Virus record (IMG/VR): IMGVR_UViG_3300005563_000098
Location: 1-24,207 of that record
Source: a virus
Strand: one strand, 5' to 3'
Length of the DNA stretch: 24,207 nucleotides
The notes below the pieces were generated by a model. That model was not told the origin of the DNA. It saw nothing but the letters and a program-made list of their open reading frames with translations, and did no database searches. Shown piece after piece: positions 212 to 23,547 of this stretch. The first letter of the stretch is position 1. Every line of letters starts with the position of its first letter. The position numbers and the translations under genes were made by a program.

Positions 212-469
212 TCACGGAATTGCGGCCCTCACCGCAGTCAGGCTCGCCGATAAGGTATCACCCCACGCCTCAAGGTCCGCGATCCAGCGTCCCGCAGATT
301 CATCGGATACATTCCCGTTATCGTCTGGGACAGGTCGCGCTGGCTTTTCAGGGATGCTTATTTGGGCTCGGCTTACCGGGCACGATGGGGCCTGAAGGCG
401 CTCCACTGTGTGAGAGCACCCCCCTAATAGCCCGAGCACAGCCAGGGCTGGCATTACCTTTTGCAACAC
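212..469 (-). CDS. Rz1: Rz1-like outer-membrane spanin lipoprotein
   Basis: This 85-residue protein is read in a different frame from Rz and overlaps its 3' half, the classic Rz/Rz1 arrangement. I chose the GTG at 469 because a strong AAGGAGG lies 9 bases upstream; the first ATG (454) would also give a signal peptide. The N-terminus has a lysine at 4, a hydrophobic stretch at 6-15 and a lipobox LLGGC with lipidated Cys18. A short Pro-rich piece (PEKPARPVPDD) follows, as in other o-spanins. The product should sit in the inner leaflet of the outer membrane and pair with Rz to fuse the two membranes at lysis. The gene runs 136 bases beyond the end of Rz. Confidence 0.8.
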   Translation of the reverse strand: MLQKVMPALAVLGLLGGCSHTVERLQAPSCPVSRAQISIPEKPARPVPDDNGNVSDESAGRWIADLEAWGDTLSASLTAVRAAIP

Positions 470-758
470 GGCTGATTTCCTCCTTGAGTAAGTCTGTGTC
501 GGCCTGGAGCTTAATTGCCTTGGCGTTGGCCTCGGCAAATGCCGCTTCAGACCGGGCGCGGGCCTCGCGTTCCTGTTTGATGATCTGGGCGTTTTCATTC
601 GCCCGCTGTTCAGCTTGGTCCGCTCGGGCAGAAGCCTCGCCGGCATGATAAATGCCATAAACCACGGCAATGACAGCAACAGCGCCAGCTACCGCGGGAA
701 CGACCCAAGATGGGAGACCGCCGAACCATGCTTTGATTGCGAGCCAAACGGCGCTCAT
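348..758 (-). CDS. Rz: Rz-like inner-membrane spanin
   Basis: The 136-residue protein has one N-terminal transmembrane segment (about residues 16-35) and then a long charged Ala/Glu/Lys/Arg helix (about 40-95) that looks like a coiled coil, the architecture of i-spanins. The ATG at 758 overlaps the endolysin stop as ATGA, and GGAG motifs lie just upstream. A longer reading from 785 is open but lies inside the endolysin gene and adds no recognisable sequence. Rz spans the periplasm from the inner membrane to meet Rz1. Identification rests on topology and on the embedded Rz1, since spanins are poorly conserved in sequence. Confidence 0.8.
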   Translation of the reverse strand: MSAVWLAIKAWFGGLPSWVVPAVAGAVAVIAVVYGIYHAGEASARADQAEQRANENAQIIKQEREARARSEAAFAEANAKAIKLQADTDLLKEEISRVAKGNASPGCARAIRGVLSHSGAPSGPIVPGKPSPNKHP

Positions 759-1345
759 TTCTCCAGCTCCATCATTCCCCACCACTTATGAATCTTGGTC
801 ACATAATCTCGTGTCTGGAGAGCATTGGCGGGGCCGGTGACGTAGGTCATGCAGGGTGAGATATCGGGCCATAGAACAGCTTCGTTGCATTGGCGCTGTG
901 CTTTGATCACGTTTCCGAGCCCTGAATTGTAGGAGGCGAGCCCCAGATCGTGACGCTGCAATTGAGTTCGCCCGGCAGGTTTCCAAGAAGCTCTAAGCTT
1001 TCCTTGATAAAAGGCCCAAGCCTCAATCCCAAGGCGAGCGTCAGATCTTGGAGTTCCGGCATCCCGTCCCATCTGACGTAAAGCGTCATTCCAGGTTGCT
1101 GGCATGAATTGTCCGAGTCCGCAGGCCCCGACTGAAGAACAAGCCTCTGGTTTGAGATTGGATTCTTGCCAGAGCTGGCTTTTCCCAAGTCTCCAGATGT
1201 CGAGGTCTTTCCACCATCGATGCACCGAAACTTGGATGTCGGAGTCGTATCGGTCATTGAAATCTTTCGAGTATGCCGCCCAGGGTGATAACCACAGCAC
1301 TAAGAAAAATGGCCATAGGGAGGGCATTGCCCTTTTTAGCCGCAT
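755..1345 (-). CDS. Exported lytic transglycosylase endolysin (SLT fold)
   Basis: The enzyme cleaves peptidoglycan glycan strands to free progeny. With the ATG at 1345 (196 residues) the N-terminus is MRLKR followed by a hydrophobic stretch to about residue 24, so it looks like a secretion signal or signal-anchor. SLT motifs follow: catalytic Glu61 in QESNLKP, GLGQFMPATW at 76-85 and ASYNSG at 137-142. Cysteines at 69, 75, 153 and 165 could form periplasmic disulfides. The reading frame is open to 1432, but the extra residues have no signal-like character. The chosen start lies inside the upstream holin-like gene (92-base overlap); GTG at 1300 is a later option. The stop overlaps the Rz start (ATGA). 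Confidence 0.85.
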   Translation of the reverse strand: MRLKRAMPSLWPFFLVLWLSPWAAYSKDFNDRYDSDIQVSVHRWWKDLDIWRLGKSQLWQESNLKPEACSSVGACGLGQFMPATWNDALRQMGRDAGTPRSDARLGIEAWAFYQGKLRASWKPAGRTQLQRHDLGLASYNSGLGNVIKAQRQCNEAVLWPDISPCMTYVTGPANALQTRDYVTKIHKWWGMMELEK

Positions 1346-1773: not shown

Positions 1774-3852
1774 TTAATTTTGATTGTGGGCTGCAGAACC
1801 CAAGCCCTGTTTCGCGGCAATATGAGATAGTTCTTTCCCGACAGATTCCATCTCGTATCGATTGGCCTGCCTCATCAAACGCGCAGCCAGTTTTGGATTG
1901 AGGGCTGCTTCAACAAGTATGTTTCCAACCGCCTCGTCTGGGAGGTGATACATCCACTCAAGCGGCCTCGCGACGGTCTGCGCAGCCTTTCCGACCGCTG
2001 TATCTGGGAAGTTTTTCCCCATGATCCGGCCAATAGCGTTGGCGACGGTGAAGTTCTTGAACGTGTCGGAGCCAGGTGTTTTTACAGTTCCGGCTTGAGC
2101 CGCAGAGCCTCTATCGAGGTCAGCAACGATGTTCGTGAGAACGTCTATTTGAGATTGGGAAAGGTTGGCATTGCCTGGGCCCTTGCCAAGTTTTCCCGAT
2201 GCAATGGCCTTGCGAACCATCGCGCCGAACTTGCCCATGGTAAGGACGGGGACGCCATGGACCGGGTCGGTGACCGCAGTGCGTCCATTGGCGCGGAGAT
2301 TATTGATCGCTTCGGTTTGGTTTAGCGCTCTTGATCTTTTGCTATATAGGTCAAGGTAACGCCTAAATCCGGGTGCGACTTTTTCAATAGCGCCATCCAG
2401 CGCGTTAATGACACTAGCCAGCTGACCTTTTGCCAATCTGAGGTCGGAACGACCGGCGGTGTTGTATTTCCCGTCTCGCGCATCGGCTAAATCCTTGCGG
2501 ACCGCATATAGCGTTTCCGCATCGCCACTTGCGACGCCGTCTTGGCTAAGAGCTTTATCAGCGAAATCCATAGCATCGCTGACGGCCTGCCTTTTGCCAT
2601 TCGGCGAACTGCGTATGTTAGTAATAGTGTCGAAAACCGGATTAAGGTCTGCATTGAATTGGGCGGCTATACCTGGGCCATGCTGCGCTGCAAGTTGCTG
2701 ACCAGCGGTGCGTTGCGCTTGATTGGACGCCAGCGCGGGGGTGAGATTTTGTGATATAGCATTGTCACGTTTATTTTTAGCATATTCCAGGCTTCCGCGC
2801 GCGGGGTTTTCAGATCCATCGCTTTGCATGGAAATGGAGTCTAAGGCATTGTTTCGTGCTAGGTTTTGGTCTGCAAGACGTTGATTAAGCCGCGCATCGC
2901 TCCCCGACCCCGCAATGATCATAGGTCTTTCGGCGGCGATTAACCCGGGGTCCTGCGACAGCTGGGCAATGGTCGGGTTGGAGCCGGGGATTATCGGCCT
3001 GGCCGCGTCCATGCGCTGAGACGCTATCGTCGGATTTGTTGACAAGCGATTCAGAACTGTTCCGGCGATGAGATTGCGGCCGTTTTCCGTAAATGGATCG
3101 ATAGCCAGTGATTTAGCACCCAAAGCGGTGCGCTCGCCCAACGTGCTTGCGGCCCCCGGCGTCATGGAACCCGCGACATTCAAGGCCATTAGAGCTAACG
3201 GGTTTTTTACGCCGAACGCCCTGCCCGCTTCCGTCGCGGCAACACCGCCAGCAGCACCAGCGGTTTGCCATAGAGGCGCGTCAGCAAGGGATTTCATGAT
3301 TAGAGAGGTAGCCGGCGCACTGCTTGCCAACGAACGCGCGATCCATCCCGCCAATCCAGCTCCACCGCCAGCGCCAACAGCGGCGGAGCCGATATCAGTC
3401 AATCCGCGTTCCATTTGGGTCTGAGGCTCTGGCAAGCCCAATGATGTGGCGGCTTGTTCTCCTAAATCAGAGACAGCCCGAGAATGACGAAACGGCTGAG
3501 GTGGGGCGACAACATCTTTCCCGGCAATCGCATTGATTCCACGATCCGTTAGGCCAACCAGTGAATCATATGCATCCATCCCGAGAGCGGGTAAGCCAAA
3601 TATAGCTGACGGAATGCCCTGAACGACGGCGCGACCTGCGAGGCCGGTATCATGGGCGACGGCACCGGCGACTGAATCATTCACCGTCGCTTTAAACGGG
3701 TCGAAGTCAACGGGCGTCGGTTGCGGCGTTCCTTGCGTTGGGCCACCGATATTAAGTCTGATTTCACCGGGCTGCGCAGGAGGCCCAAATTGAGCGGTTG
3801 GATCAACCGCCGAAAATGGATCATAGTCAACCGGAACGGCTGCTACCGCCAT
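1774..3852 (-). CDS. Large internal virion / DNA ejection protein
   Basis: This 692-residue protein is the last of three large consecutive proteins after the tail hub, the position of P22 gp7/gp20/gp16-type ejection proteins that leave the capsid and form a channel across the envelope. The N-terminus carries a repeated motif, PVDYDPF (7-13) and PVDFDPF (47-53). Gly/Ala-rich hydrophobic stretches (about 150-170 and 197-230) could insert in a membrane. The middle and C-terminal parts are charged, Ala- and Gln-rich and largely helical. The ATG overlaps the preceding gene by 10 bases. No enzymatic motif is seen. The role is inferred from position, size and composition. Confidence 0.65.
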   Translation of the reverse strand: MAVAAVPVDYDPFSAVDPTAQFGPPAQPGEIRLNIGGPTQGTPQPTPVDFDPFKATVNDSVAGAVAHDTGLAGRAVVQGIPSAIFGLPALGMDAYDSLVGLTDRGINAIAGKDVVAPPQPFRHSRAVSDLGEQAATSLGLPEPQTQMERGLTDIGSAAVGAGGGAGLAGWIARSLASSAPATSLIMKSLADAPLWQTAGAAGGVAATEAGRAFGVKNPLALMALNVAGSMTPGAASTLGERTALGAKSLAIDPFTENGRNLIAGTVLNRLSTNPTIASQRMDAARPIIPGSNPTIAQLSQDPGLIAAERPMIIAGSGSDARLNQRLADQNLARNNALDSISMQSDGSENPARGSLEYAKNKRDNAISQNLTPALASNQAQRTAGQQLAAQHGPGIAAQFNADLNPVFDTITNIRSSPNGKRQAVSDAMDFADKALSQDGVASGDAETLYAVRKDLADARDGKYNTAGRSDLRLAKGQLASVINALDGAIEKVAPGFRRYLDLYSKRSRALNQTEAINNLRANGRTAVTDPVHGVPVLTMGKFGAMVRKAIASGKLGKGPGNANLSQSQIDVLTNIVADLDRGSAAQAGTVKTPGSDTFKNFTVANAIGRIMGKNFPDTAVGKAAQTVARPLEWMYHLPDEAVGNILVEAALNPKLAARLMRQANRYEMESVGKELSHIAAKQGLGSAAHNQN

Positions 3853-5345
3853 TGTATATACTTTCCTGGACGATTGGGGTCAGGCGTGAACCATGCGGGA
3901 TTGCCGTCCCTATCCTTCCCCATCTTTGCATCCGGTGGAATACCGGGAGGTGGTGTGGGTGCGTTCGGGTTCGCTCCCGGCGCATATTGCGGATTTTCCA
4001 GTAATGCCGCCACTTGCGGGTCCAACTTCTTCGCAAAGTCTTTGCGCTGCGTTTCAGTTTCATATTGCTGCTTCAGCCCATGAAGCTGCCCAACCATGAG
4101 GCCCTTAAACGTATTTATATTTCCAGCCCGCTGTGGCCCGCTTGTGGCGGAAGATAGTGGAGCGGCAAACTTTTCTCTGTCGGATACTGCGGAATTTCCA
4201 CCGAGTACAAATTTTGCAACCTCGTCCCCGACCAAGGGGGCGGCGGTTTCATAGCTTGTGATCGGCACGCCGCCGAACTCTGCGGAGAGTTTGTTTTTGA
4301 TTGCGTTTGCGGCCTGAACGTCTCCGCTATCAAGGGCTTGCCCCAAAGCATCAAGCATTTGCAAATGGGTTGTCGCTACGTTGGCCGATCTGACAAGGGC
4401 GCCTTCTTTTCCAGACGCAAATTTGGTCTGGGCAGCGTTTGAGCTATTATAGAAGCGTTCGTCATAATCCGGGTTGATCTGCTTAACGCGGTCCATAATG
4501 GCCAGGTTAAAGGGACGCATTGCCCCCGCCCCACTGGGCGGCTTCTTCTGATAGTTGGCAATCATTTCCGCAGTCGATTGCACGTCTTCATCCGTAACCA
4601 TCTGCGTGCCGTCAGGTTTTTTGGTCTGACCCGTTTGCTTATTGATGAGAATTGGATTCCCGAACGCGTCTTTCGATTCAACCCATCCTGAATTTGCGGC
4701 GGCGTTATTTGCCTCGTTGGTCTGGGCAAGCACCCTTGCTCGTTCATCGGGGTCCGTGATTTTCCCCGCATCGTGGTCAATGATGGCCTGGAGCTGTGCG
4801 CGGCGTGGGTCATCAGGAGCCATCGCATTCAATGCGGCGATATTACGCTGTTGCGGCGTTTGTTCCGGGAACACTGACTTTGCGTTAGCTTCTCCCGAGG
4901 CTTTCGGATCGAGCAAATAGGCTTGTATCTGCGCGTCCGTCCAGCCAGCGGATTTAAGCTGCGGCACATATGCTGCTGCTGATGCCCTGCTCACATCCGT
5001 GGCCAGGAATGCAGTCGGGTCCGCCTGTCTCAACAGGTTCGCGTTTTCCTGGTCGGTCTGCTTATAGCTATCGGCCAATAGGTTCTTGACCTGTGGTGGG
5101 GCTGAGTTAACCGGCATCGTTTGGAAATTGCCGTTGGCGTCGGCTTGCTCATAATTTCCTGTCGGAGCAGATGGCGCGTTCCAGGTAATTCCCGTGTTGG
5201 GATCGGGCATACCATAGCCGAGCTTGGATTGTGCCGAGGTCTGGGAAAGAAGATTTTGCGCGGCCAGCTTGGCTTTGAGGTATTCGAGATTATCGGTCGC
5301 GTTCCTGGCGTTTATTCCAGAGAACAGGTCATCAAAGAAACCCAT
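3843..5345 (-). CDS. Putative DNA ejection protein (second of three)
   Basis: This 500-residue protein begins with an amphipathic segment (MGFFDDLFSG) common in phage internal virion proteins. It is rich in Ala, Asn and Gln and is mostly helical in character. The C-terminus becomes Pro-rich (about 455-475, PTPPPG) and ends in a small DRDGNPAWFTPDPN element. It lies between two other large structural genes with a 5-base gap before it and a 10-base overlap after it. I recognise no catalytic motif. A T7 gp15- or P22 gp20-like role in the ejectosome is inferred from gene order. Confidence 0.6.
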   Translation of the reverse strand: MGFFDDLFSGINARNATDNLEYLKAKLAAQNLLSQTSAQSKLGYGMPDPNTGITWNAPSAPTGNYEQADANGNFQTMPVNSAPPQVKNLLADSYKQTDQENANLLRQADPTAFLATDVSRASAAAYVPQLKSAGWTDAQIQAYLLDPKASGEANAKSVFPEQTPQQRNIAALNAMAPDDPRRAQLQAIIDHDAGKITDPDERARVLAQTNEANNAAANSGWVESKDAFGNPILINKQTGQTKKPDGTQMVTDEDVQSTAEMIANYQKKPPSGAGAMRPFNLAIMDRVKQINPDYDERFYNSSNAAQTKFASGKEGALVRSANVATTHLQMLDALGQALDSGDVQAANAIKNKLSAEFGGVPITSYETAAPLVGDEVAKFVLGGNSAVSDREKFAAPLSSATSGPQRAGNINTFKGLMVGQLHGLKQQYETETQRKDFAKKLDPQVAALLENPQYAPGANPNAPTPPPGIPPDAKMGKDRDGNPAWFTPDPNRPGKYIQWR

Positions 5346-5350
5346 TTAGA

Positions 5351-6532
5351 TCACCCAATCGAGAATTTTGCAGTGTTGGAATTACTCGACCCAGATTGAT
5401 CGGTGTTGCTCGTAAACGATGAGCCATTCCCCGCTCCCGCTGACTCAAGGAGCGCCTGGAGCTGCGCCTGTGTGATGGTCCCATTATCAAACAATGCCTG
5501 AGCGGCCTTTGTATCAATCCCGTTCGCCGTGACGATGTTATTGAGGATGCCTTCATCAATCCCGGTCTGCTGGGCGATGCTCGCGGCCATCTGACCTGCA
5601 GCGGCAAGTTTCTGATTGGTGTTGGTCTGCTGCGCGCCAACATTGAATTTCGATGTGTCGGTCAACAGATTTGCGTTGAATTGGTTATTGCTGAGCAGGT
5701 TCCCGGCATTGGTCGTGTCCGCCGAAAGCGTCCTGTTCGCGTCCTGCTGACCCAACCCAGCAGCAGTATTGAATGCGTTCAGGCGTAGTCCAGCAGCTAG
5801 ATTTCCAGCCCCTAAAGCTGAATCGGACTGGAACACGCCTTGAGCGACACCCGTCCGCTTATTCCCAAAAGCCCCAGCATTAGCGGCGGTCAGAGAATTG
5901 TATCCCTTGTCGGCGGCATGTTGATAACTATCCAGGCTTGAGTTCACGTAGGCGTCATTCAGGGGCGTCATATAGGGCGTCATGGCAGACGCGCCGGTTT
6001 GTGCGTTTACCAGGGGCGCATTAGCTGAGGTCGAAGCCGTAGCCTGTGGGGCGGTTTGGTTTTCAATGTCCCATAGTGGTTTGTTTACATAGTCTCCCAG
6101 GGCACCCTTGAAGTATTGAAGGTCTGGATTGATCGAAGCCACCGCCGCATCAACGGGGCTGTTAAGTAGGTTTTTGTTCTGAAAGTCCAGGGCCGTTTGC
6201 TGAGTCTTATTGGCGCCTATCTGGCCATATCCGTTCGTCGGCGTGTATGCAAACGGCTGTGTTGATGTTGCCGTGGCGGGGGTTCCGTCAGCGTTATAGG
6301 AATATCCATTAACGGTATATGTTGACGGTTGTGTGGTTCCAGTCTTTGCGGTGTTCGGTGGTGCGACATACCCAGATGAGCTGTTAACCGGCATATTCAA
6401 CGAACTTAGTATGTTGTTGAACTGCGTCTGCCACTGCGGCGAAAGGTTGGGCGTGCGCGTACCATATTGGCTAGTATTACTATTGCTGGACGTGCTCGTG
6501 TTCGAGTCACTTGCGCTCGGAAGCCAACCCAT
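5351..6532 (-). CDS. Putative DNA ejection protein (first of three)
   Basis: The protein of about 393 residues contains an N-terminal Ser/Thr/Asn-rich stretch, a central segment PYMTPLNDAYVNSSLDSYQ and GAFGNKRTGVAQGV, and a Gln/Asn/Ala-rich helical region NAFNTAAGLGQQDAN. From memory, this central block recurs in internal virion proteins of podovirus-like phages of alphaproteobacteria. The C-terminus returns to a Ser/Asn/Thr-rich tail. I prefer the ATG at 6532, with GAGG 7 bases upstream; the adjoining GTG at 6535 is possible. Its start shares a base with the upstream stop (TGATG). The likely role is entry of DNA into the host. Confidence 0.65.
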   Translation of the reverse strand: MGWLPSASDSNTSTSSNSNTSQYGTRTPNLSPQWQTQFNNILSSLNMPVNSSSGYVAPPNTAKTGTTQPSTYTVNGYSYNADGTPATATSTQPFAYTPTNGYGQIGANKTQQTALDFQNKNLLNSPVDAAVASINPDLQYFKGALGDYVNKPLWDIENQTAPQATASTSANAPLVNAQTGASAMTPYMTPLNDAYVNSSLDSYQHAADKGYNSLTAANAGAFGNKRTGVAQGVFQSDSALGAGNLAAGLRLNAFNTAAGLGQQDANRTLSADTTNAGNLLSNNQFNANLLTDTSKFNVGAQQTNTNQKLAAAGQMAASIAQQTGIDEGILNNIVTANGIDTKAAQALFDNGTITQAQLQALLESAGAGNGSSFTSNTDQSGSSNSNTAKFSIG

Positions 6533-6975
6533 CACTTAACCTCATGCTCTAAAGAATAATCGGCCCAACTCTCGCCAAGCGCTCTAAATTCCGCATTTAC
6601 CTGCCTCGCCCATTCCACGCCCCCGATGATCCGCGCCGCCATCGTCGTCAGGGATAACGCGGAAAATCTCAGCCCGTAGGCAATGATGATATTTTGGGAT
6701 TTTTTGGTTTTCTCCAATGCGTTCGCCGTCAGCCAATCGAGAATGGATATTTCAACCAGCGGGCTCAAAAGCTGGAAGTTCCGTTGATAGAATCCGTTCC
6801 TTGGTAATTTCACGAGGGCCGACATGAACGCGTAATTGATCTGCTCCGGATCAACCGGCTTATCCCGGTCGATCAGATCGTCCCAAATCTCAGCAATGCT
6901 ATGAATTGTTAGAATGAACTCTACCGCCTCTTGATCGCCCTTTAGATATTTGACGATCTCGTCTTTCAGGATCAT
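6532..6975 (-). CDS. Conserved phage protein of unknown function
   Basis: This 147-residue, largely helical protein has features such as EQINYAFMSALVKLPRNGFY, YGLRFSALSL and GGVEWARQV. I recall similar proteins near tail and ejection genes of other podovirus-like phages, but without a known function. The hydrophobic stretch at about 95-118 may be a buried or membrane helix. The start overlaps the hub-protein stop (ATGA), and the end overlaps the next start. A role in assembly or ejection is only suggested by position. Confidence 0.6.
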   Translation of the reverse strand: MILKDEIVKYLKGDQEAVEFILTIHSIAEIWDDLIDRDKPVDPEQINYAFMSALVKLPRNGFYQRNFQLLSPLVEISILDWLTANALEKTKKSQNIIIAYGLRFSALSLTTMAARIIGGVEWARQVNAEFRALGESWADYSLEHEVK

Positions 6976-14998: not shown

Positions 14999-17121
14999 GG
15001 GCTGACGCTCATATCAAACGGCGGCGTTTTCTTTGGGGGCTTAACCCCAGTCTGAAAGTCCTTAGCGATCATTGAAGCATCGACTTTGGCGGCTTCGATG
15101 ATCAGGGAGTGTTTTTCAATGCCAAGCTGCTCGGCCTTGAGCATCGCATTCCAATAGTTGTTCTCCCGAGCTGTACGTTCAGTCGAGGCGATTTGCGCGA
15201 TGGCTTTCTCGCGCTCGAAATCGAGGTTCGCGGCGTCGGATGCCGATTTCGCCTGGGTTTTGGCGTTCTCGGTATCCGCAAGTAACTGCGCTTCCGGTGA
15301 TGGTGTCGGGGGTGGTTGCTGCGGTTTCCAATCGCCAGGGTCGGTGAAGAATTTCTCGGGGTATGCAACACCGGCAGATTCGGCGATGAGTTGCTGCGTT
15401 TTAACCAACTGCTTCATGCTGACGATCGGGTTATCCGGCCCCAATTGCATGACGACTTCTTTTTGTGCAGCAGCGATCTGCTGTAGCATCGCCATATCGC
15501 GGTCGCGGTTTCCCGTTCCCAACCCGGTATTGATATTGACTTCCAGGTCCTGCAATCCCGCCCATTGCCGGGGATCGACTTGAACCGGAGAACCGTCAAC
15601 CTGAATCGCCCGCGCGAAATCCTGGTAGGCGATGATGCATTTCAGGACGGAGCGGAATAGCTTTCTCATTCCCCCTTGCGCCCAAATCCGGGCGATCATC
15701 TCCAGCCGGCCCTGCATCGCGCTATACTGAAGGCTGGCAGCAGTGGCGGATTGGTTTTGCAACGTGTCAGGGTCTAATCCACCCGTTGCCCTGCCAACGC
15801 CAGTTCTTATCTCCGCTTCGCCATCGAAATACGACATGGCCGTAAGGACTTTGTCGGCCACGAAGGGAATGGACATTTCCCTGATCGCGCCGGGTTGTTT
15901 GACAAGCACCGGAGCGCCCGGCGCCATGTTCATCAACTGATCTGGTTTAACAATCCAGTCCATCACCACCTCACGCTGAGGGGTATTGGAAAGGAATAGA
16001 TTGTCGTTCATCTGCCGAATGAGAACGGTGCGTATCTTCTGCAGTTCGGCCAAATCATCGGCGGGGCAACGCCCATAAACCGTATGCGGCATGGGAATGG
16101 GGGTGAAGTTTGCAAAAAACACCTGGGCTTCGTAGGGCTCGAAGTCCAGAACCTTCAGCGCGTTATCGCTTCCTCCCGCCAGGAAGTACCATTCTTTGAT
16201 TCCGGTTCCATCGGCATCACAGCGGATAATACCTTGCGCCACCGTGACCTTGCGCAACATAGGGTCGGCGGCTTGCGATCTGTTCTGCAGCCCCGCCGCG
16301 TCCATATTGTATTTGGTCGTGCGGTTCGGATAGGGGTCGGCGTAGGCAGGTAACGCGTTAACTATTTCCGCTGGGTATCCATCTTCTATCAAATCGCCCA
16401 CGGTCATGAACGTGCGGTGGGCTTGGAGGATGCAATAATCATCCGTCCTGGCGTCCCGGCTGATGACGTATTCCTCGGGCGGGATTACCTCAATACAGAC
16501 CTTGGACTTGTTGGTCTTCTGGCGCACTTTGATCGAGTGCATCTGGGTTGGGCCGTTTGGCCCCTGACCAATGGGTCCAGGCGTATGTTCAATCGGCTCC
16601 ATACCATTGTTCGCTACCGTCTGCAGGAACGTCGGCAAATGCTCATGCGGAATGTTGTCATGGATCTGATCGGAGGATTCCCAGTTCTCCTCCCACCAAA
16701 CCTTTACCGTGCCGAGCTTTTGAATCAGCGCGTCATCGCACCAATCCCCGAGGAGCAATTCGCCCCGGTTATCCTTACGAAACACCACGTCATTCACATA
16801 ATGCGTGATGGTCTTAACGATTGGGTCCAGCTCATCTTTGGGGCTGACGTACTCGGCGATATTCCGGCCTGCGGTAAAAATGCGCAGAAGACTGGGCTTC
16901 ATCAACCCGATGTAGCTTGAAACAGTTCTATCCGTGATCTTCGACCGCCCGTTTGGAGCGGGAAGATCATTCATTATCCCACGGTAGTAATCGTAGTTTC
17001 TGTCTCTATCGGCGGCGATGCGATCTGGGCCATAAACATATTCAAGGCCAGCCGTCATTTCGTTGGAGATAAGCCGCTCAATGGATTCTTTATCAAGTCC
17101 CTTGCCGGGCTCAGCGATCAT
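14995..17121 (-). CDS. Portal protein (P22-like)
   Basis: The 708-residue protein is close to the 725 residues of P22 gp1. The N-terminal region has YYRGIMNDLP, GRSKITDRTVSSYIGLMKPS and FRKDNRGELLLGDWCDDAL, patterns I associate with P22-like portals. The middle has GRCPADDLAELQKIRT and RQMNDNLFLS, as in the wing and stem region. The C-terminus (about 610-690) is a long charged Ala/Gln/Glu helix resembling a barrel. ATG overlaps the TerL stop. The dodecameric portal forms the DNA gate at one capsid vertex and docks terminase. Confidence 0.85.
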   Translation of the reverse strand: MIAEPGKGLDKESIERLISNEMTAGLEYVYGPDRIAADRDRNYDYYRGIMNDLPAPNGRSKITDRTVSSYIGLMKPSLLRIFTAGRNIAEYVSPKDELDPIVKTITHYVNDVVFRKDNRGELLLGDWCDDALIQKLGTVKVWWEENWESSDQIHDNIPHEHLPTFLQTVANNGMEPIEHTPGPIGQGPNGPTQMHSIKVRQKTNKSKVCIEVIPPEEYVISRDARTDDYCILQAHRTFMTVGDLIEDGYPAEIVNALPAYADPYPNRTTKYNMDAAGLQNRSQAADPMLRKVTVAQGIIRCDADGTGIKEWYFLAGGSDNALKVLDFEPYEAQVFFANFTPIPMPHTVYGRCPADDLAELQKIRTVLIRQMNDNLFLSNTPQREVVMDWIVKPDQLMNMAPGAPVLVKQPGAIREMSIPFVADKVLTAMSYFDGEAEIRTGVGRATGGLDPDTLQNQSATAASLQYSAMQGRLEMIARIWAQGGMRKLFRSVLKCIIAYQDFARAIQVDGSPVQVDPRQWAGLQDLEVNINTGLGTGNRDRDMAMLQQIAAAQKEVVMQLGPDNPIVSMKQLVKTQQLIAESAGVAYPEKFFTDPGDWKPQQPPPTPSPEAQLLADTENAKTQAKSASDAANLDFEREKAIAQIASTERTARENNYWNAMLKAEQLGIEKHSLIIEAAKVDASMIAKDFQTGVKPPKKTPPFDMSVSP

Positions 17122-18395
17122 GCGACCCAGTCAACCTTAAATTCCATAACCTCGTTACCCCAGGCCGCTTTAGATGTTTTCTTAATGCCGGTGAATAAAT
17201 ACCGGAATGCGTCGGCAGGATGGCTTGTCCAATCATGCAATGGACGGTCGCGGAAGACTTTCTTCTGCTCATCCCATTCGGTGCGGTATTGCTTCAGCGC
17301 CTCAATTCCGCGCTTACATTTCTCAGCGTCGAACCAACAGCGGTTGAGAACCAAACGAACCGCATTAACGCCATCTTCAACGCCCAATTTTGGCGCGACG
17401 GTTGCGTTAATGTCCAATTCCTTCAGGACCTCTTTCCGGCTTTTGCCAGTACCAAGCTCTTTCGCCTCAACGTCATGAGGTAGGATATGGTCAGCATAGA
17501 CATAGGGCTTGGCCCTCAGTTCCTTGACATACCAGTCAAGCCCAACGCCGTTATTCTCCAGATAATCGATCAGGTGGTATTCCTGTCCTACCTGCTGGCA
17601 GAACCAAATCGCGGTTGAGTCGCCTATTCCTAAATCCCACGCCGTAATTACATCGGTGGATTTGTCATATGGCACCCGGCAGATGCGCTTCTGCGCCTCG
17701 GCCTCGGCCATTTCTTTGCCGTAATATGCGCCCTGGATTGCGGCTTCAAACGAGCACTCAAATTCCTGGGCATATTGATCTGCGGTCAGATCACGTTTAG
17801 CGGCTTGCAGCTCAATCTCGTGAATAAGTCCGGTTTCTGAAGCGCGATGCATCCGCGCATACCAGTCCGGGCTGTTCTGCGCCGCCTGCCAGATTTCGTA
17901 GAAATCATTGTGACCGTTCGGTGTCCCGATAAAATCCGCCCACCCCAGCCGGTCAGATAGCGCCGGTCGTACGACAGGCCATATACGAGGGTCCATGGTG
18001 CCATATTCGTCAAACACCACCCCATCCAGATAAATCCCTCTCAAGCTATCGGGGTTGTCGGCGCCGTAAAGTCTGACCTGGGCACCATTCGGATAATCAG
18101 CGCGCAGTTCGGATTCGTTGAACGTCGCGCCGGCTGAAATCAGCGGGGCCGAATAGAACTTCAGATAATCCCAAGCAACAGCTTTGGCTTGCTTCAGGAA
18201 TGGGGCGATATAAGCAAACCTCGGCCGCTCAAGCGTTTCGGTCAGCGCCCCTCGGATCAAATCATTCACCCGCGAGACCGTCTTTCCACCGCGACGGTGG
18301 ACAACCTCACACGAAAAGCGTTGGGTCCGGTTATGAAATGGCTGGAATAATGGTCTTGGCGTATAGGGGATGATTACCCGGCGTTCGGCTGCCAA
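17118..18395 (-). CDS. terL: Terminase large subunit
   Basis: The 425-residue protein is the ATPase/nuclease that pumps DNA into the prohead. An atypical Walker A HRRGGKT is at 33-39, Walker B GVVFDE at 125-130, and a coupling motif IGTPNGHND at 156-164. In the nuclease part TAWDLGIGDS (251-260) supplies the first metal-binding Asp and HPADAFRY (392-399) a late acidic residue. The start is TTG at 18395, 22 bases inside TerS; it places IIPYTPRPL about where related proteins begin. No better ATG is present. The stop overlaps the portal start (ATGA). Confidence 0.92.
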   Translation of the reverse strand: MAAERRVIIPYTPRPLFQPFHNRTQRFSCEVVHRRGGKTVSRVNDLIRGALTETLERPRFAYIAPFLKQAKAVAWDYLKFYSAPLISAGATFNESELRADYPNGAQVRLYGADNPDSLRGIYLDGVVFDEYGTMDPRIWPVVRPALSDRLGWADFIGTPNGHNDFYEIWQAAQNSPDWYARMHRASETGLIHEIELQAAKRDLTADQYAQEFECSFEAAIQGAYYGKEMAEAEAQKRICRVPYDKSTDVITAWDLGIGDSTAIWFCQQVGQEYHLIDYLENNGVGLDWYVKELRAKPYVYADHILPHDVEAKELGTGKSRKEVLKELDINATVAPKLGVEDGVNAVRLVLNRCWFDAEKCKRGIEALKQYRTEWDEQKKVFRDRPLHDWTSHPADAFRYLFTGIKKTSKAAWGNEVMEFKVDWVA

Positions 18396-18814
18396 GAAAT
18401 CACCAATGGGCCGCCATCAGCGCCCGTATGTTCATTTGTTACCTTATCGCCATATTTTTTCGGCTTCAGCTTGGCCGCCACCCATTTCCGGGCGTCAACA
18501 CGAAGCCTAGAGCGATTAATCCATTCGTGATCGCAAACTTCATATTTGCTGCCGTCATCATGGGTTAGCGTTTTGGTATCCCGGCTCGCCTCATCGGCTA
18601 TCCCAATGATTTCATCCGCCAACGTGTCCGCCTGTTCTTCGCGTGCGCGCGCGTACATGTCCGAGAATTCATTGTGGCGGCTAAGCCATAAATATACCGT
18701 TGATCTAACCGGCATATCCTCTCGCTCACATATTTCCTTCAGAGATTGGCCATCCCCGAGAAGGGAACAAATCTCAGCGGCTTTCTCAGGGCTGTAATCA
18801 GTCGGGCGCGACAT
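18374..18814 (-). CDS. terS: Terminase small subunit (Sf6-type)
   Basis: The 146-residue protein is close to the 140 residues of Sf6 gp1. It has an N-terminal helix-turn-helix (YSPEKAAEICSLLGDGQSLK, SLKEICEREDMPVRSTVYLW). A conserved middle follows (FSDMYARAREEQADTLADEI) and a C-terminal WINRSRLRVDARKWVAAKLK then KPKKYGDKVT. It would bind the packaging site and feed TerL. GAGG lies 7 bases before the ATG. The start shares a base with the preceding stop (TGATG), and TerL begins inside its last 22 bases. Confidence 0.88.
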   Translation of the reverse strand: MSRPTDYSPEKAAEICSLLGDGQSLKEICEREDMPVRSTVYLWLSRHNEFSDMYARAREEQADTLADEIIGIADEASRDTKTLTHDDGSKYEVCDHEWINRSRLRVDARKWVAAKLKPKKYGDKVTNEHTGADGGPLVISWQPNAG

Positions 18815-19827
18815 CAGGCAGCCTCGCTATGCCGGATTGAAATAACCTTGCTCAAATCAGCCTTGGGTATCTCGAATTTATTGGCCGGGAGCGGTTCAAG
18901 ATACCCGCCAACTTTCATGGGGTCTTTGTTGAAATCCTCATTCGCATGTAACCCTATCGTGGCGGCGTAGAATGGGAGCAATCCATGACCATAGACCGTC
19001 ATGGTAAATGCGGGTCTGAGTCTTTCAGATGCGGTATGAATCGGAAGCTCCTCGATGATGCGGTCAAAGTCGAAATACTGTCGCGCCATGTGGGAGTTTG
19101 TATCGAACTTCCGTTCGTACCCTCGGGATTTGCAAAGCACGGGACCGGATTGGGCGTCTTTGGCTTCGATCTTGTGGTAGGCGTGGAGCTTTCCAGCGGA
19201 ACGGCTACTGTCAAATCCGAACAGATGGAATTTGTCGGCGCCCATAAAATGGCCGGGCATGATCGACCTTAGCCCTACCGTCGTCGCGCCAGGAACCACA
19301 TGCCACGGCCTGGTCGGCCAGTATTGGCGAAGGACCGCAGTCGGCTCGTCCCCTTGCGGGAAGTCCTGGCCGGCGTGCCACAGGAAGACCGGATAAGCCT
19401 TCAGGCTCTCAAACACGCTGTCATGGCATTGGCTGGCCACGAAATAACGAACGTCCTTCCTCGGGCGTTTAACGTAATCCGCAACCCAGTCCTTGGGGTC
19501 GAGCAGGAAATGCCCCCAGGGGACAATTCCTTTTTCCAATAGCCAGTCATGTGACTTATTCACGCTGACGATATTCACGCCGCGCTTCTTCAAACGGAGA
19601 ATATCTTGAACACAGTTATTGATGGACGGGCCCCCGCCTATAATCGCCCATTCCTTGGCTTTGTTTTCGCACTGCAAGAAATGAGGTAGCTTTCGCTCCA
19701 TCGCGCTACAGGCTCTCGCCCTCACGTCTTCCCGGCTGAGCCGACCACCCATTGTGCTGTGGAGAACGCTTTTAAGCGTAGGTCCATCACTGGACAGATC
19801 AATTTCCGGGAATGTCTCGAATGACAT
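18814..19827 (-). CDS. DUF115/MAF-like protein, probable glycan-related enzyme
   Basis: The 337-residue protein has WAIIGGGPSINNC (about 59-71), VSVNKSHDWLLEKGIVPWGH and, later, VVPGATTVGLRSIMPGHFMG with HLFGFDSS. These resemble DUF115 / motility-accessory-factor proteins, which use a nucleotide-binding Rossmann-like fold and are linked to sugar modification, though their reaction is often unknown. The GGGPS motif probably binds a nucleotide-sugar. GAGG lies 4 bases before the ATG. It is transcribed just ahead of the terminase and lies near the glycosyltransferase and FkbM genes, so a shared job is plausible but not shown. Confidence 0.6.
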   Translation of the reverse strand: MSFETFPEIDLSSDGPTLKSVLHSTMGGRLSREDVRARACSAMERKLPHFLQCENKAKEWAIIGGGPSINNCVQDILRLKKRGVNIVSVNKSHDWLLEKGIVPWGHFLLDPKDWVADYVKRPRKDVRYFVASQCHDSVFESLKAYPVFLWHAGQDFPQGDEPTAVLRQYWPTRPWHVVPGATTVGLRSIMPGHFMGADKFHLFGFDSSRSAGKLHAYHKIEAKDAQSGPVLCKSRGYERKFDTNSHMARQYFDFDRIIEELPIHTASERLRPAFTMTVYGHGLLPFYAATIGLHANEDFNKDPMKVGGYLEPLPANKFEIPKADLSKVISIRHSEAA

Positions 19828-19965
19828 TTTCCCTCACTTGATCTGTTAATGGAGATGCGCCCGAGCATCCCGACCATTTTTAAGCTGTGCTTGAATGTTT
19901 GTGACGGTGCCGGGCGCAATTCGCGGAACGTTACAATTAATACCCTGGAATTATGGAACGTGAAG
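19828..19965 (-). promoter_or_regulatory. 138-base gap, possible late promoter region
   Basis: This is the largest gap in the right half of the window and separates the accessory cassette from the packaging genes. Bases GGAACGT occur twice, at about 19925 and 19954 on the + strand. The minus strand has TTCACG, 16 bases, then TATTAA, a weak -35/-10 match. A 5-bp inverted repeat GATGC/GCATC (loop TCGGGC) lies near 19853-19868 with no T tract. I cannot place a promoter with confidence. Confidence 0.25.
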
Positions 19966-20487
19966 TCAAGCTGCTTTTTGAGCCCTTCTGGTTTTCGCCC
20001 ATTTGATCAAAACGCTTAGACCGAGCATGAACTTTTTCCGGTCGGGACAGTGAGCGGATTGCTTTCCCTTCAGCCAGCCTGGATAGCGTTCATGAATAAT
20101 CACGTTATCAACAGCATCGAACACCCCTCTCCCGTGACTCTTGAGCATGTCACACGCTCGGCGAAATTCCGCTTCGTCTGTCGCATCACCCCCGGTTGGC
20201 TCCCCGCCTGTGGCATGGAGCAGATCCATGGCCTTTGGGTGGGGGCTGCCGAATACATTCTGGCGGGTCGCTCTGAATGCACATGCAGCGTTATAGGCGT
20301 CTAAACTGATCACCGGATGCACTTTGTCATATCTGAGGGCTTTGATCGCATCCAGGGGGCAGCTCGCGAGAGTGGCGTCCTCTGGGGAGATTTGAGTGCG
20401 CTTCATGATTAGCTCCGGGGTTCCGAGATCAATTGAGGGACGTGGTTTATTCTTAGGGCGACCGCCCTTATTGATTTTCTTTCTCAT
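19966..20487 (-). CDS. Basic phage protein with N-terminal GRPK...DLGTPEL motif
   Basis: The 173-residue protein starts with a basic stretch (MRKKINKGGRPKNKPRP) and IDLGTPEL, which I recall in small phage proteins of alphaproteobacteria. The rest is helical and alpha-rich (ISLDAYNAACAFRATRQ, FRRACDMLKSHGRGVFDA). I choose the ATG at 20487, with GAGG 5 bases upstream; a GTG at 20493 lies too close to it. It overlaps the upstream mini-gene by 20 bases and is followed by a 138-base gap. The position before late genes and the basic N-terminus hint at DNA binding or late regulation, but that is inference. Confidence 0.6.
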   Translation of the reverse strand: MRKKINKGGRPKNKPRPSIDLGTPELIMKRTQISPEDATLASCPLDAIKALRYDKVHPVISLDAYNAACAFRATRQNVFGSPHPKAMDLLHATGGEPTGGDATDEAEFRRACDMLKSHGRGVFDAVDNVIIHERYPGWLKGKQSAHCPDRKKFMLGLSVLIKWAKTRRAQKAA

Positions 20488-20650
20488 GGTCACCTCGGTA
20501 CGTGTTGATAACGGATTTCATCGGGCAGTCATTCGGCCAGGAACTCATACATCCCAGTTCCATAACGATCATTGGCGCATATCCGCAGGATGCGCAGCGC
20601 TCGACGGTTCCGGGTGTTCTTAATTCACCGTTTTTGAACCCCCGGCTCAC
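20468..20650 (-). CDS. Four-cysteine mini-protein
   Basis: The 60-residue protein has CASC (Cys19, Cys22) and further cysteines at 34 and 42, a possible small zinc-binding or disulfide fold. The GTG start overlaps the FkbM stop (GTGA), with AAGGGGG 6 bases upstream. The last 20 bases overlap the next gene. The coupling and SD support a real gene, but the short length leaves it uncertain. No family is recognised. Confidence 0.5.
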   Translation of the reverse strand: MSRGFKNGELRTPGTVERCASCGYAPMIVMELGCMSSWPNDCPMKSVINTYRGDHEKENQ

Positions 20651-21390
20651 AGCAGCCCCCTTACACTCAAATAATGATTAAAATCCCCACTCTTTGGGTC
20701 GGCTGGCATCAATGCATCAACAGACTCAATCCTCCCCCCGCGCTCATATATCTTCCATATGCGATAGCCCAACTGGGCTGCGGCCTTATTCCACTCAGCG
20801 CAATTGTCGGCGTCAAACGTCTCAAGCAGAATGTCGGGCCTGCTTTCCAATGACATCCCACCCAACACAAGAGCCTCTGCACCCTCCACATCGATCTTCA
20901 CCAACCCGCGCTGGCCGAGCTTGATGTCATAATTCGAGAACTTCTCGGCGACAGCGAGCACAGACTCATGCCTGCCTTGGGTTTCGCCCAAATGTCCGCC
21001 ACTGGAGATGAAGCCATCCTTATAAACCCATGAGAGAGTGGCCACGCCGCGACGGTCGGCGAGTGCTTCCCGATGCAACTCTATATTCTTGAAATCGTTA
21101 ATGCGCTTATGCACGGAGAGGCGCGCGAACGCGTCAGGATTAGGCTCGAAGGCATGTATGGGGATGTCCTCTCTAAGTGACGCTGCGGCGAGGCTATAAA
21201 CCCCCTCCTGCGCCCCTATATCAATGATGGTCGAGGCAGAGCGCACCAGTTTGCACCAAAGCGCCATTGAGATTGGCTCGAAATGTTTAAGCTGGACGAT
21301 GTCAACATAACGATGACTGTCGTTCGCTGAAAACATCCTAAACGGAGGGCAATCGAAAATATCAACACTATAAAAGCCAGGCACAGTCAC
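20647..21390 (-). CDS. FkbM-family SAM-dependent methyltransferase
   Basis: The 247-residue protein has the class I methyltransferase motifs DIGAQEGVYSL (57-67), FEPNP (81-85) and the FkbM signature KIDVEGAE (165-172). FkbM enzymes usually O-methylate sugars or related small groups. It follows the glycosyltransferase with a GTGA overlap, so it probably acts on the same glycan. The target (host surface polysaccharide, virion protein or DNA sugar) cannot be told from the sequence. It lacks a signal or membrane segment, so a cytoplasmic location is expected. Confidence 0.85.
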   Translation of the reverse strand: MTVPGFYSVDIFDCPPFRMFSANDSHRYVDIVQLKHFEPISMALWCKLVRSASTIIDIGAQEGVYSLAAASLREDIPIHAFEPNPDAFARLSVHKRINDFKNIELHREALADRRGVATLSWVYKDGFISSGGHLGETQGRHESVLAVAEKFSNYDIKLGQRGLVKIDVEGAEALVLGGMSLESRPDILLETFDADNCAEWNKAAAQLGYRIWKIYERGGRIESVDALMPADPKSGDFNHYLSVRGLL

Positions 21391-22679
21391 TTGGCGTATC
21401 TCTCATATAATTCCATATACTTCACGCGATCTGGATCAATCTGACGCTTGCCATCAGGACCGGGCTTCAATCCCATAAATTTGTTCTTGCCGGAATTACA
21501 CCACACGATTCCGTTATCTTTATACTCATAATCAATATGTTTATCGTCCAGGAACGCCAGCTTCGGCGAGCAGCCCAGATCGCGGAGATATTCATAGCAT
21601 CCATACATCGCGAATTGATCAATGCCCCATTGTAGATTCCCGCGCTGCCAGCAGAAGGCGATGTAGGCCGCAATCAGCCGGAAATATCGCTGCGCTGCGG
21701 GTGTCGGGGCCACTCCAACCACGCAGGCGTTGAACTGATTCCACGGCTCGAACCTGCCGGCGCGCACACGGAACGCAACGTCATGGCCATCGAGCGTTGC
21801 AAACATTGGTGCTGGATCGTTGCGGAACAGCGCATCAACATCCATCAACCACAGCGGCCCCTTGGCTTCTCGGAGATGTTGCCACAAGCGTATAAAACGA
21901 ATGGAATGATAATAGGCGCGCGAGGCTTCACAATATTCATATGTCCCGACGCCTAATTTATTCCCCAACGGGTTCATTTCATGAATATGGATGTTTTGGC
22001 CATTTGAAACATCGCGGAGAGACGCCACTAACGCATCTCCGAATGCGTTCATATATTTCCCATCGGCGCCGAGATATATCGTTGGGCTTGATGATGCCAG
22101 CCCCGTCCCATGGACCTCTGGCAGTCCGCGTAAAATATCCTCATCACTCATACTTTCCAGATATGCATAAAATTTGGGATCAAAATTAACACATGACCAC
22201 ACGTGATTTTGTACGCGGTCGCGAAACAGCGTGAGATTCCGCTGCGCGCCTGAGCGGTCTCGATCACAAAAACGCGCCAAACATTTCGCGACCAGATCAT
22301 TACTCTTGAACGCCAGTTCCTGATAAAGCTCAAAATCATCCACACAGTATTTGAAAAACATCTCATCCAAACTGGTCGCGTGATAAGGCATAAGCTCGCG
22401 ATCAATGCGCGCGGAGAACTCCTTATAAAATAGGAGCGCCCCTAGAATTTTTAGCTTTTCGCTATCCGATTCACTGTTCTCCAACATTTCATCCATGGTT
22501 TCGGCAGTCGAGCGCGGTTGATCGTCAAATATCGTCCGCGCATACGCAATTCCGGCATCTATATTTTTCGAGTCAGAACACCAAGCGCTGTAATAGGCCA
22601 ATGCAGCCAAGCGCCGCTGTCCTTCCGCTTCTGCTTTTTGGGCTCTTGCAAAATAGTCGATGCCGAACGCAAAGGTCAT
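21387..22679 (-). CDS. GT-A-like glycosyltransferase with helical N-terminal half
   Basis: The 430-residue protein has an N-terminal helical region (about 1-180) with Ala-rich repeats (ARAQKAEAEGQRRLAALAYY) that look TPR-like. The catalytic part begins near TIYLGADGKYM (200) and has LWLMDVDALF with the metal/nucleotide-sugar DXD motif at 280-282. FNACVVGV (316-323) and WGIDQFAM (351-358) follow, as in GT8-like folds. AAGGA lies 8 bases before the ATG. It overlaps both neighbours and leads into the FkbM gene. Donor and acceptor sugar are unknown. Confidence 0.7.
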   Translation of the reverse strand: MTFAFGIDYFARAQKAEAEGQRRLAALAYYSAWCSDSKNIDAGIAYARTIFDDQPRSTAETMDEMLENSESDSEKLKILGALLFYKEFSARIDRELMPYHATSLDEMFFKYCVDDFELYQELAFKSNDLVAKCLARFCDRDRSGAQRNLTLFRDRVQNHVWSCVNFDPKFYAYLESMSDEDILRGLPEVHGTGLASSSPTIYLGADGKYMNAFGDALVASLRDVSNGQNIHIHEMNPLGNKLGVGTYEYCEASRAYYHSIRFIRLWQHLREAKGPLWLMDVDALFRNDPAPMFATLDGHDVAFRVRAGRFEPWNQFNACVVGVAPTPAAQRYFRLIAAYIAFCWQRGNLQWGIDQFAMYGCYEYLRDLGCSPKLAFLDDKHIDYEYKDNGIVWCNSGKNKFMGLKPGPDGKRQIDPDRVKYMELYERYAK

Positions 22680-23065
22680 TCTGGATCGTCCTTGCGGCGG
22701 TGAGTGCGCATGAATCCAACTGTTTTTACATCATCTGCGCGTCGAGCGTGTAACCAACCTCCAAAACTAAATGGAGATACTATGCTATTAGCTTGAATAG
22801 GCTCCAGCTTGCGCATGGCGCGGTACGCGTCGAGTATGCAGTCAATTACATCTGGGCTGCCCGGTCGCCTGTTGAACGCTTTCCAGCCGGCTAAGCGCTG
22901 CTCCTCCGTCACAGGTATTTCCGGCTCATCGGATGGGTTGAGGGCGACTTCAAGAATGTCGCGCATATTCTTCCAATTTATGTCAGCGGGGCCATGTATT
23001 GGCCACATTGCCTTCCAAAGTGCCCGCTCCACCATCGCGTCGTCTATCTGTATTTTCTTGGTCAT
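22676..23065 (-). CDS. Phage protein of unknown function
   Basis: The 129-residue protein is helical in its first part and has EEQRLAGWKAFNRRPGS and DCILDAYRAMRK, a layout seen in small phage early proteins. It is joined to both neighbours by ATGA overlaps, between the nuclease and the glycosyltransferase. I do not recognise a domain. Confidence 0.55.
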   Translation of the reverse strand: MTKKIQIDDAMVERALWKAMWPIHGPADINWKNMRDILEVALNPSDEPEIPVTEEQRLAGWKAFNRRPGSPDVIDCILDAYRAMRKLEPIQANSIVSPFSFGGWLHARRADDVKTVGFMRTHRRKDDPE

Positions 23066-23547
23066 CCGGCACCTAGAATCGAGAAATCGTTCACCTCTTT
23101 TGGTGACATTGGCTTTGGCTTAGTCGGAATTAATCCGACCTCACGCAATAAAATCTGCGCTCTGGCCAGGGGATTGTGATGGATTTCAGATCCAGTCACC
23201 CGAAACACGCGGTAACCGTATTCCTCGATAACGGCGGTTCGTCTTACATCCCGAGCAATATCCTTGTGAAACGCGGCACCATCACATTCGATCACAATCC
23301 GAGGGGCACCATTGGGATGTATTACAACAACATCAGCGCGGTATTTCCCAATCGGAACCTGGACATCAATCTTTGGCCTGATTTCCGGGTCTGCCGTCAG
23401 AATCACCAGGCACAAAGCACATACGAAAAGCTGCTCAATTGGGCTTTCACACTTCTCCACAATCTCCAGCATTTCGGCTGGCATTTGGCCCATGAATGGC
23501 GTGACCAAACTCCACCCCGAAATGCCATCAATCTCGCGCCGGCTCAT
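23062..23547 (-). CDS. PD-(D/E)XK endonuclease, DUF559/Vsr-like
   Basis: The 161-residue protein has the DUF559 pattern: Glu38 in ESPIEQ, Asp72 in YRADVVV, and Glu87-Cys-Asp89 then GxxFH (IECDGAAFH). The segment RDVRRTAVIEEYGYRVFRVT is followed by SEI. DUF559 proteins are small single-domain nucleases related to Vsr and are found with phage and mobile DNA. A role in DNA repair, resolution or processing of phage DNA, or against competing DNA, is possible. ATGA overlaps join it to the replication-like gene and the next gene. Confidence 0.75.
   Translation of the reverse strand: MSRREIDGISGWSLVTPFMGQMPAEMLEIVEKCESPIEQLFVCALCLVILTADPEIRPKIDVQVPIGKYRADVVVIHPNGAPRIVIECDGAAFHKDIARDVRRTAVIEEYGYRVFRVTGSEIHHNPLARAQILLREVGLIPTKPKPMSPKEVNDFSILGAG

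Follow-up and report, generated by a model that had tools for sequence, protein, structure and literature searches.

A putative cytoplasmic glycan-modification cassette with a Maf-like fold beside the terminase genes of an environmental phage

In this work, we analysed a virus record of 24,207 bases (IMG/VR record IMGVR_UViG_3300005563_000098; "the window" refers to the whole of this stretch), in which genes for a GT-A type glycosyltransferase (GT), an FkbM-family S-adenosylmethionine (SAM) methyltransferase and an MptE-like protein lie beside the genes of the terminase subunits TerS and TerL. Records in IMG/VR are fragments, and the window is classed as linear and is hence perhaps one as well. 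Our analyses suggested that these genes may well constitute a phage cassette for glycan modification in the cytoplasm, one that plausibly decorates virion proteins. That the products are cooperating enzymes of a glycan cassette is probable, and the chances that the virion is their target are about even. The cassette reading is based on family assignments, on the fold modelled for the MptE-like protein, and on genomic linkage and gene fusion in relatives, and from these we infer the donor, the acceptor, the order of the steps and the virion target.

The core of the module is the MptE-like protein, which matched PF01973 (once DUF115, currently named 'MptE-like' in Pfam) with 47.3 bits against a cut-off of 34.6. 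Its AlphaFold model, built with 26 sequences, reached a pLDDT of 81.7 with a folded part at residues ~28-312, and the top match in the PDB was the flagellin glycosyltransferase Maf of M. magneticum (5mu5, aligned over its residues 244-508; Foldseek E 1e-6, Z 18.4, 224 residues, 3.8 A). The second match was HPPK/MptE of M. jannaschii (8sd5; Z 15.0, 187 residues, 2.7 A) and the next was Cst-I (2p2v; Z 10.6, 184 residues, 4.1 A); Cst-I/Cst-II and GT29 sialyltransferases scored Z ~8-11, and T4 DNA alpha-glucosyltransferase Z 4.5. The sequence profile matched 5mu5 with an E value of 8e-11 across most of the domain, and MptE with 0.0025 in the N-terminal part. The Pfam name and the fold shared with archaeal MptE, a 6-hydroxymethylpterin diphosphokinase, would suit a true pterin or nucleotide pyrophosphokinase with no sugar role. 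We consider this very improbable, since Maf is the stronger match in both sequence and fold, and since the recurring partners of the phage gene are GTs and sugar-type methyltransferases, which differ from the gene partners of archaeal MptE. Maf enzymes transfer CMP-nonulosonate to flagellin and have 632-666 residues in three domains, whereas the phage protein of 337 residues aligns to the central domain only; it lacks the two flanking Maf domains, N- and C-terminal, and the flagellin context. The MptE-like protein is thus predicted to work like a Maf-type transferase and not to be a Maf itself, as the three-domain architecture fails. All phage versions have in common W150, G180, G196, F200-H201, G204 and D206, which presumably differ from the published active site of Cst.

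The strongest evidence for cooperation comes from other viral loci. An alignment of MptE-like proteins from terminase relatives found 68 loci with MptE-like relatives, and 10 further loci recruited via the GT itself brought the full set to 78 records. A GT and/or a SAM methyltransferase, in the same open reading frame (ORF) or at most three genes away, was present at 59 of the 68 loci and in 69 of the 78 records, counts that are weakened by profiles built partly from the same loci. At 4 of the 9 loci lacking such a partner, the contig end cuts at the MptE gene. Both partners were found in 48 of the 78 records, and in 42 the GT, methyltransferase and MptE-like domains were fused in a single ORF. 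Close kinship among many of these records means that independent events are far fewer; clustering at 60% identity left ~16 lineages. By comparison, only 2 of the 76 terminase relatives without an MptE-like gene have any GT or methyltransferase gene of this kind. With Pfam matches alone, PF01973 was found in 49/50 module records versus 0/50 controls, and PF13578 in 25/50 versus 0/50.

The arrangements of the module vary. In L100, L111, L121, L136 (722 amino acids) and many other loci, a single protein of 718-785 amino acids combines a GT-A-like domain at its N-terminus with Methyltransf_24 and, at its C-terminus, an MptE-like domain; in most cases another GT gene (phrog_28018) precedes it. Elsewhere, a GT is fused to MptE (L089), a methyltransferase-MptE fusion adjoins the portal gene (L093), MptE is overlapped by a GT-B-like gene and followed by TerS and TerL (L087), or the major capsid protein (MCP), a small ORF, MptE, a GT-A-like gene and a Methyltransf_24 gene are all adjacent or overlapping (L095/L102). 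In L084/L085 and L149-L158, a homologue of the window GT is fused to a GT-B-like domain and lies directly upstream of MptE, a TerS-sized ORF and TerL. The nearest solved structures of the fused methyltransferase are O-methyltransferases, including the macrolide-sugar mycinamicin III 3''-O-methyltransferase. The fused N-terminal domain is tentatively a GT, as a DxD-like motif and weak Pfam GT2/GT8 matches hint. In several lineages the neighbours of MptE-like are head or packaging genes, namely MCP (L102, L097), portal (L093) or TerS/TerL, which points to terminase and head neighbourhoods as places where such genes recur; an earlier note on this DNA had regarded the combination as unusual for a packaging region, a view to be revised in the light of these loci. 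In L097 (9464-10618), the MptE-like protein has an N-terminal extension of ~150 residues that resembles a degraded GT8-type domain.

The TerL search found HTVC010P-type podoviruses and many environmental contigs, and we compared the best 80 TerL loci, four of which (L002, L003, L020, L022) carry an MptE-like gene. The closest relative with this region sequenced is L003 (TerL 76% identical), where the order is an initiator-like gene, two small genes, gp175 (E 5e-7 to the window version), MptE, a TerS-sized ORF and TerL; because of this order, MptE and gp175 appear to be the older terminase neighbours, and GT and FkbM the variable ones. These relatives bear on the possibility that the three genes have nothing in common but their place, as cargo of an accessory hot spot next to the terminase: L003 has neither GT nor FkbM, FkbM is private to the window, and L020 has at that place a ParB/DNA-methyltransferase gene. 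The latter (2368-3591, between MptE and the terminase) reads as a ParB-like domain, after which comes a DNA-methyltransferase-like domain with a DPPYG motif. We hold the cargo explanation to be improbable, and the 42 three-domain fusions, as well as the strict GT-MptE adjacency in 12 relatives, leave it strained.

For the two variable enzymes the family evidence differs in strength. The FkbM protein scored 72.7 bits against TIGR01444 (cut-off 37.7) and 30.9 bits against PF05050 (cut-off 22.7), and the motifs DIGAQEGVYSL, EPNP and KIDVEGAE can be read off its sequence. Its search of phage records matched 69 of them, with at most 75% of the FkbM length covered among the matches listed. The GT passed PF03407 (Nucleotid_trans) marginally, with 22.3 bits against a cut-off of 22. 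Both aspartates of its D280-x-D282 motif, the DxD metal/nucleotide motif, are invariant in alignment A4, and EPWN (311-314) and D354-Q355 are also kept in phage relatives. In 12 of the 12 usable relatives of this GT, its gene lies directly upstream of the MptE-like gene, followed by a TerS-sized ORF and TerL. A profile comparison between the window GT family and the GT family of the fused proteins did not support relatedness, and in PDB sequence searches neither GT nor FkbM nor the fused GT domain had a match.

In the window, the genes with an assignment are all on the minus strand (Table 1). Their order there is a replication-initiator-like gene, a nuclease-like gene, gp129, GT, FkbM, gp175, MptE-like, TerS and TerL, followed on the same strand by portal, scaffold, major capsid and then tail and lysis genes. 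The three genes that the earlier note had placed beside the terminase are thus real, intact and open where it put them, and its term 'podovirus-like' is apt: among the PHROG head families there are matches for portal, scaffold and MCP, and TerL is closest to those of Pelagibacter HTVC010P-type, Methylophilales and Rhodoferax phages (42-49% identity). Of its three-gene cassette the families stand, with the trio interrupted by gp175 between FkbM and MptE-like. The translational coupling it read between GT and FkbM corresponds to a real overlap of 4 nucleotides, which is not distinctive: such overlaps occur at 10 of the 26 consecutive gene junctions in the window and overlaps of 1 nucleotide at 5 more, and because this is the general style of the genome, the overlap says little about a special bond. 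Profile-library scans found no family for gp175, and the possible 60-residue ORF, which likewise falls between FkbM and MptE-like, has no homologue among the loci fetched.

Table 1. Features of the module and its neighbours in the window.
Feature	Position	Strand	Evidence or remark
PF01973 'MptE-like' protein, 337 aa, Maf/GT42-like fold; module core	18814..19827	-	Profile and model
GT-A type glycosyltransferase, 430 aa	21387..22679	-	PF03407 at residues 263-341; ~190-residue N-terminal extension
FkbM-family SAM methyltransferase, 247 aa	20647..21390	-	TIGR01444, PF05050, phrog_8156
gp175, 175 aa, between FkbM and MptE-like	19966..20493	-	No family match; kept next to MptE in L003
Possible 60-aa ORF, putative, reality uncertain	20468..20650	-	4-nt overlap with FkbM
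Terminase small subunit TerS, Sf6-like, PF20901	18374..18814	-	Neighbour of MptE-like gene
Terminase large subunit TerL	17118..18395	-	Neighbour; phylogenetic anchor

We propose the following function for these genes. First, the GT-A enzyme would add a sugar from a host nucleotide-sugar. Second, FkbM would O-methylate this sugar as a cap. Third, the MptE-like protein, with the catalytic-domain fold of Maf and Cst, would be another sugar transferase, and the analogy with Maf makes it the likely enzyme for sugar attachment to Ser/Thr in a folded protein. The three enzymes would be at work late in infection, in the cytoplasm of the host. The cassette proteins have no transmembrane-like segment (best 19-residue hydropathy 0.8-1.15), and stepwise building of a methylated glycan is suggested because three soluble enzymes of sugar transfer and methylation are linked and sometimes fused. 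Since enzymes without membrane segments would act in the cytoplasm, the likeliest acceptor would be a virion protein whose assembly takes place there. Candidate acceptors include Ser/Thr-rich stretches of gp708 and gp394, which have no evidential value.

Two other targets have to be weighed. Serotype-converting genes alter the host surface polysaccharide, and the cassette could do the same, for example to block superinfection or to release progeny from receptor debris. Polysaccharide clusters commonly contain members of the GT and FkbM families, and two phages carry comparable gene groups. The podovirus ct7QV12 (L161, MW202713.1, a complete record) has at 2039-6578, directly upstream of TerL, an island of a TibC-like GT, a GT-A-like gene, a methyltransferase, an unannotated GT-B-like ORF and a DegT-type aminotransferase; in Pelagibacter phage Mosig (L160, 3656-9490), methyltransferases, glycosyltransferases and a sulfotransferase cluster beside ribonucleotide reductase (RNR) genes. 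We nevertheless judge a host-surface target to be unlikely. The gtrABC systems of serotype conversion use a multi-pass membrane GT and a flippase, whereas no such membrane-spanning enzyme or flippase accompanies the cassette, whose proteins all look soluble; no integrase is among the identified genes of this fragment, which leaves lysogeny unsupported; and the cassette genes sit within the packaging block. The other target is a sugar on phage DNA, a hypermodified base guarding against restriction. DNA-glycosylating GTs of phages are well known (cited in PMC12619734), the cassette stands between the replication and the packaging genes with a nuclease-like gene close by, and in the L111 lineage the module is located near DNA polymerase and RNR genes. 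In the window, a 24-kb fragment, no gene for a sugar-accepting modified base was recognised, and the MptE-like fold is far closer to Maf and the sialyltransferases than to T4 DNA alpha-glucosyltransferase, which makes modification of DNA quite improbable. Among the three targets, the virion appears best because of the soluble enzymes, the head and packaging neighbours and the Maf-like fold.

Several observations weigh against a virion-decorating cassette, among them the L111 location given above. The likeness to Cst and Maf is one of fold and, for Maf, of sequence profile, and H246 near the C-terminus of the MptE-like protein is conserved in the closest clade alone. The PF03407 match of the GT is barely over its cut-off, none of the homologues in alignment A4 matches PF03407, and the structure model of the GT reached a pLDDT of only 43. 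The earlier note had asked whether the three families co-occur across related phages, and would have taken independent occurrence in relatives as a refutation. For the activities its idea stands, since they do recur together, often fused; for the exact families it is partly refuted, since FkbM (PF05050) was found in 0 of 50 module-bearing relatives, and in L003 and L020 MptE is present with neither GT nor FkbM. MptE must therefore also have a role without these partners or use host enzymes. Finally, it is by inference that the virion is named as acceptor.

Comparison with known systems shows partial likeness. Maf flagellin glycosyltransferases share the PF01973 catalytic domain and are the best match in sequence and fold; this domain is reported to resemble the sialyltransferase Cst-II, and the way in which Maf attaches sugar in the cytoplasm to Ser/Thr of folded protein serves as the model for the phage protein (PMC11339370). 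In chlorovirus PBCV-1, virus-encoded soluble GTs and O-methyltransferases (A064R/A061L) cooperate on the capsid glycan, and A064R is a single chain made up of two rhamnosyltransferases plus a methyltransferase (PMC9614988). This three-domain polypeptide resembles the fused phage relatives, whereas the window genes are separate, and PBCV-1 is a eukaryotic virus with an N-glycan and without an MptE/Maf-like domain. For mycobacteriophage virion glycosylation, we know of no MptE-like component. Mycobacteriophage capsid and tail tube proteins are reported to carry glycans (Freeman et al. 2023, cited in PMC12619734), as is proposed here for virion proteins of the window phage.

Further searches and observations concern the wider setting. 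Scanning viral contigs with single sequences of MptE, GT or FkbM gave no match, whereas alignment-based scans succeeded; neither the MptE-like queries (window, L020) nor the GT query matched any of 50,697 phage records, and the fused L136 protein matched two of them, with the GT-like domain alone, one being ct7QV12. A scan of bacterial and archaeal genomes with the MptE alignment found nothing and, being a single short pattern, is weak evidence for phage specificity. The TerL search of genomes gave distant matches across several phyla, in metagenome-assembled genomes as well as isolates, and the module was absent from all of them; a nucleotide-level search of half the window against phage records gave no match. 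In the window, a small nuclease-like protein of the MTES_1575/DUF559 family (23062-23547, minus strand) adjoins the replication gene, and two overlapping frames near the lysozyme gene (212-785, minus strand) look like an Rz/Rz1 spanin pair, frame 348-785 starting with a hydrophobic segment and frame 212-679 with a lipobox-like LGGC. In L085 (1159-3075), a 638-residue protein three genes upstream of the GT has a GHKL ATPase (HATPase_c) match just under the Pfam cut-off.

A literature search on the function of phage DUF115/MptE-like proteins found nothing relevant, and we found the recurring phage arrangement of the three activities, adjacent or fused, described nowhere. Virus-encoded glycan modification is already known; the new part is the Maf-like, often fused component. 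It is possible, and we say so tentatively, that Maf-like phage transferases together with a GT-A enzyme and a sugar O-methyltransferase, separate or fused, are an undescribed system that methyl-glycosylates the virions of environmental phages. Few cases of glycosylated bacteriophage particles are known. A fused GT-methyltransferase-Maf-like module, if widespread, would provide a genetic marker of glycosylated phages, would add soluble protein glycosyltransferases of a new class, and would explain many phage proteins labelled '6-hydroxymethylpterin diphosphokinase MptE-like' on weak grounds.

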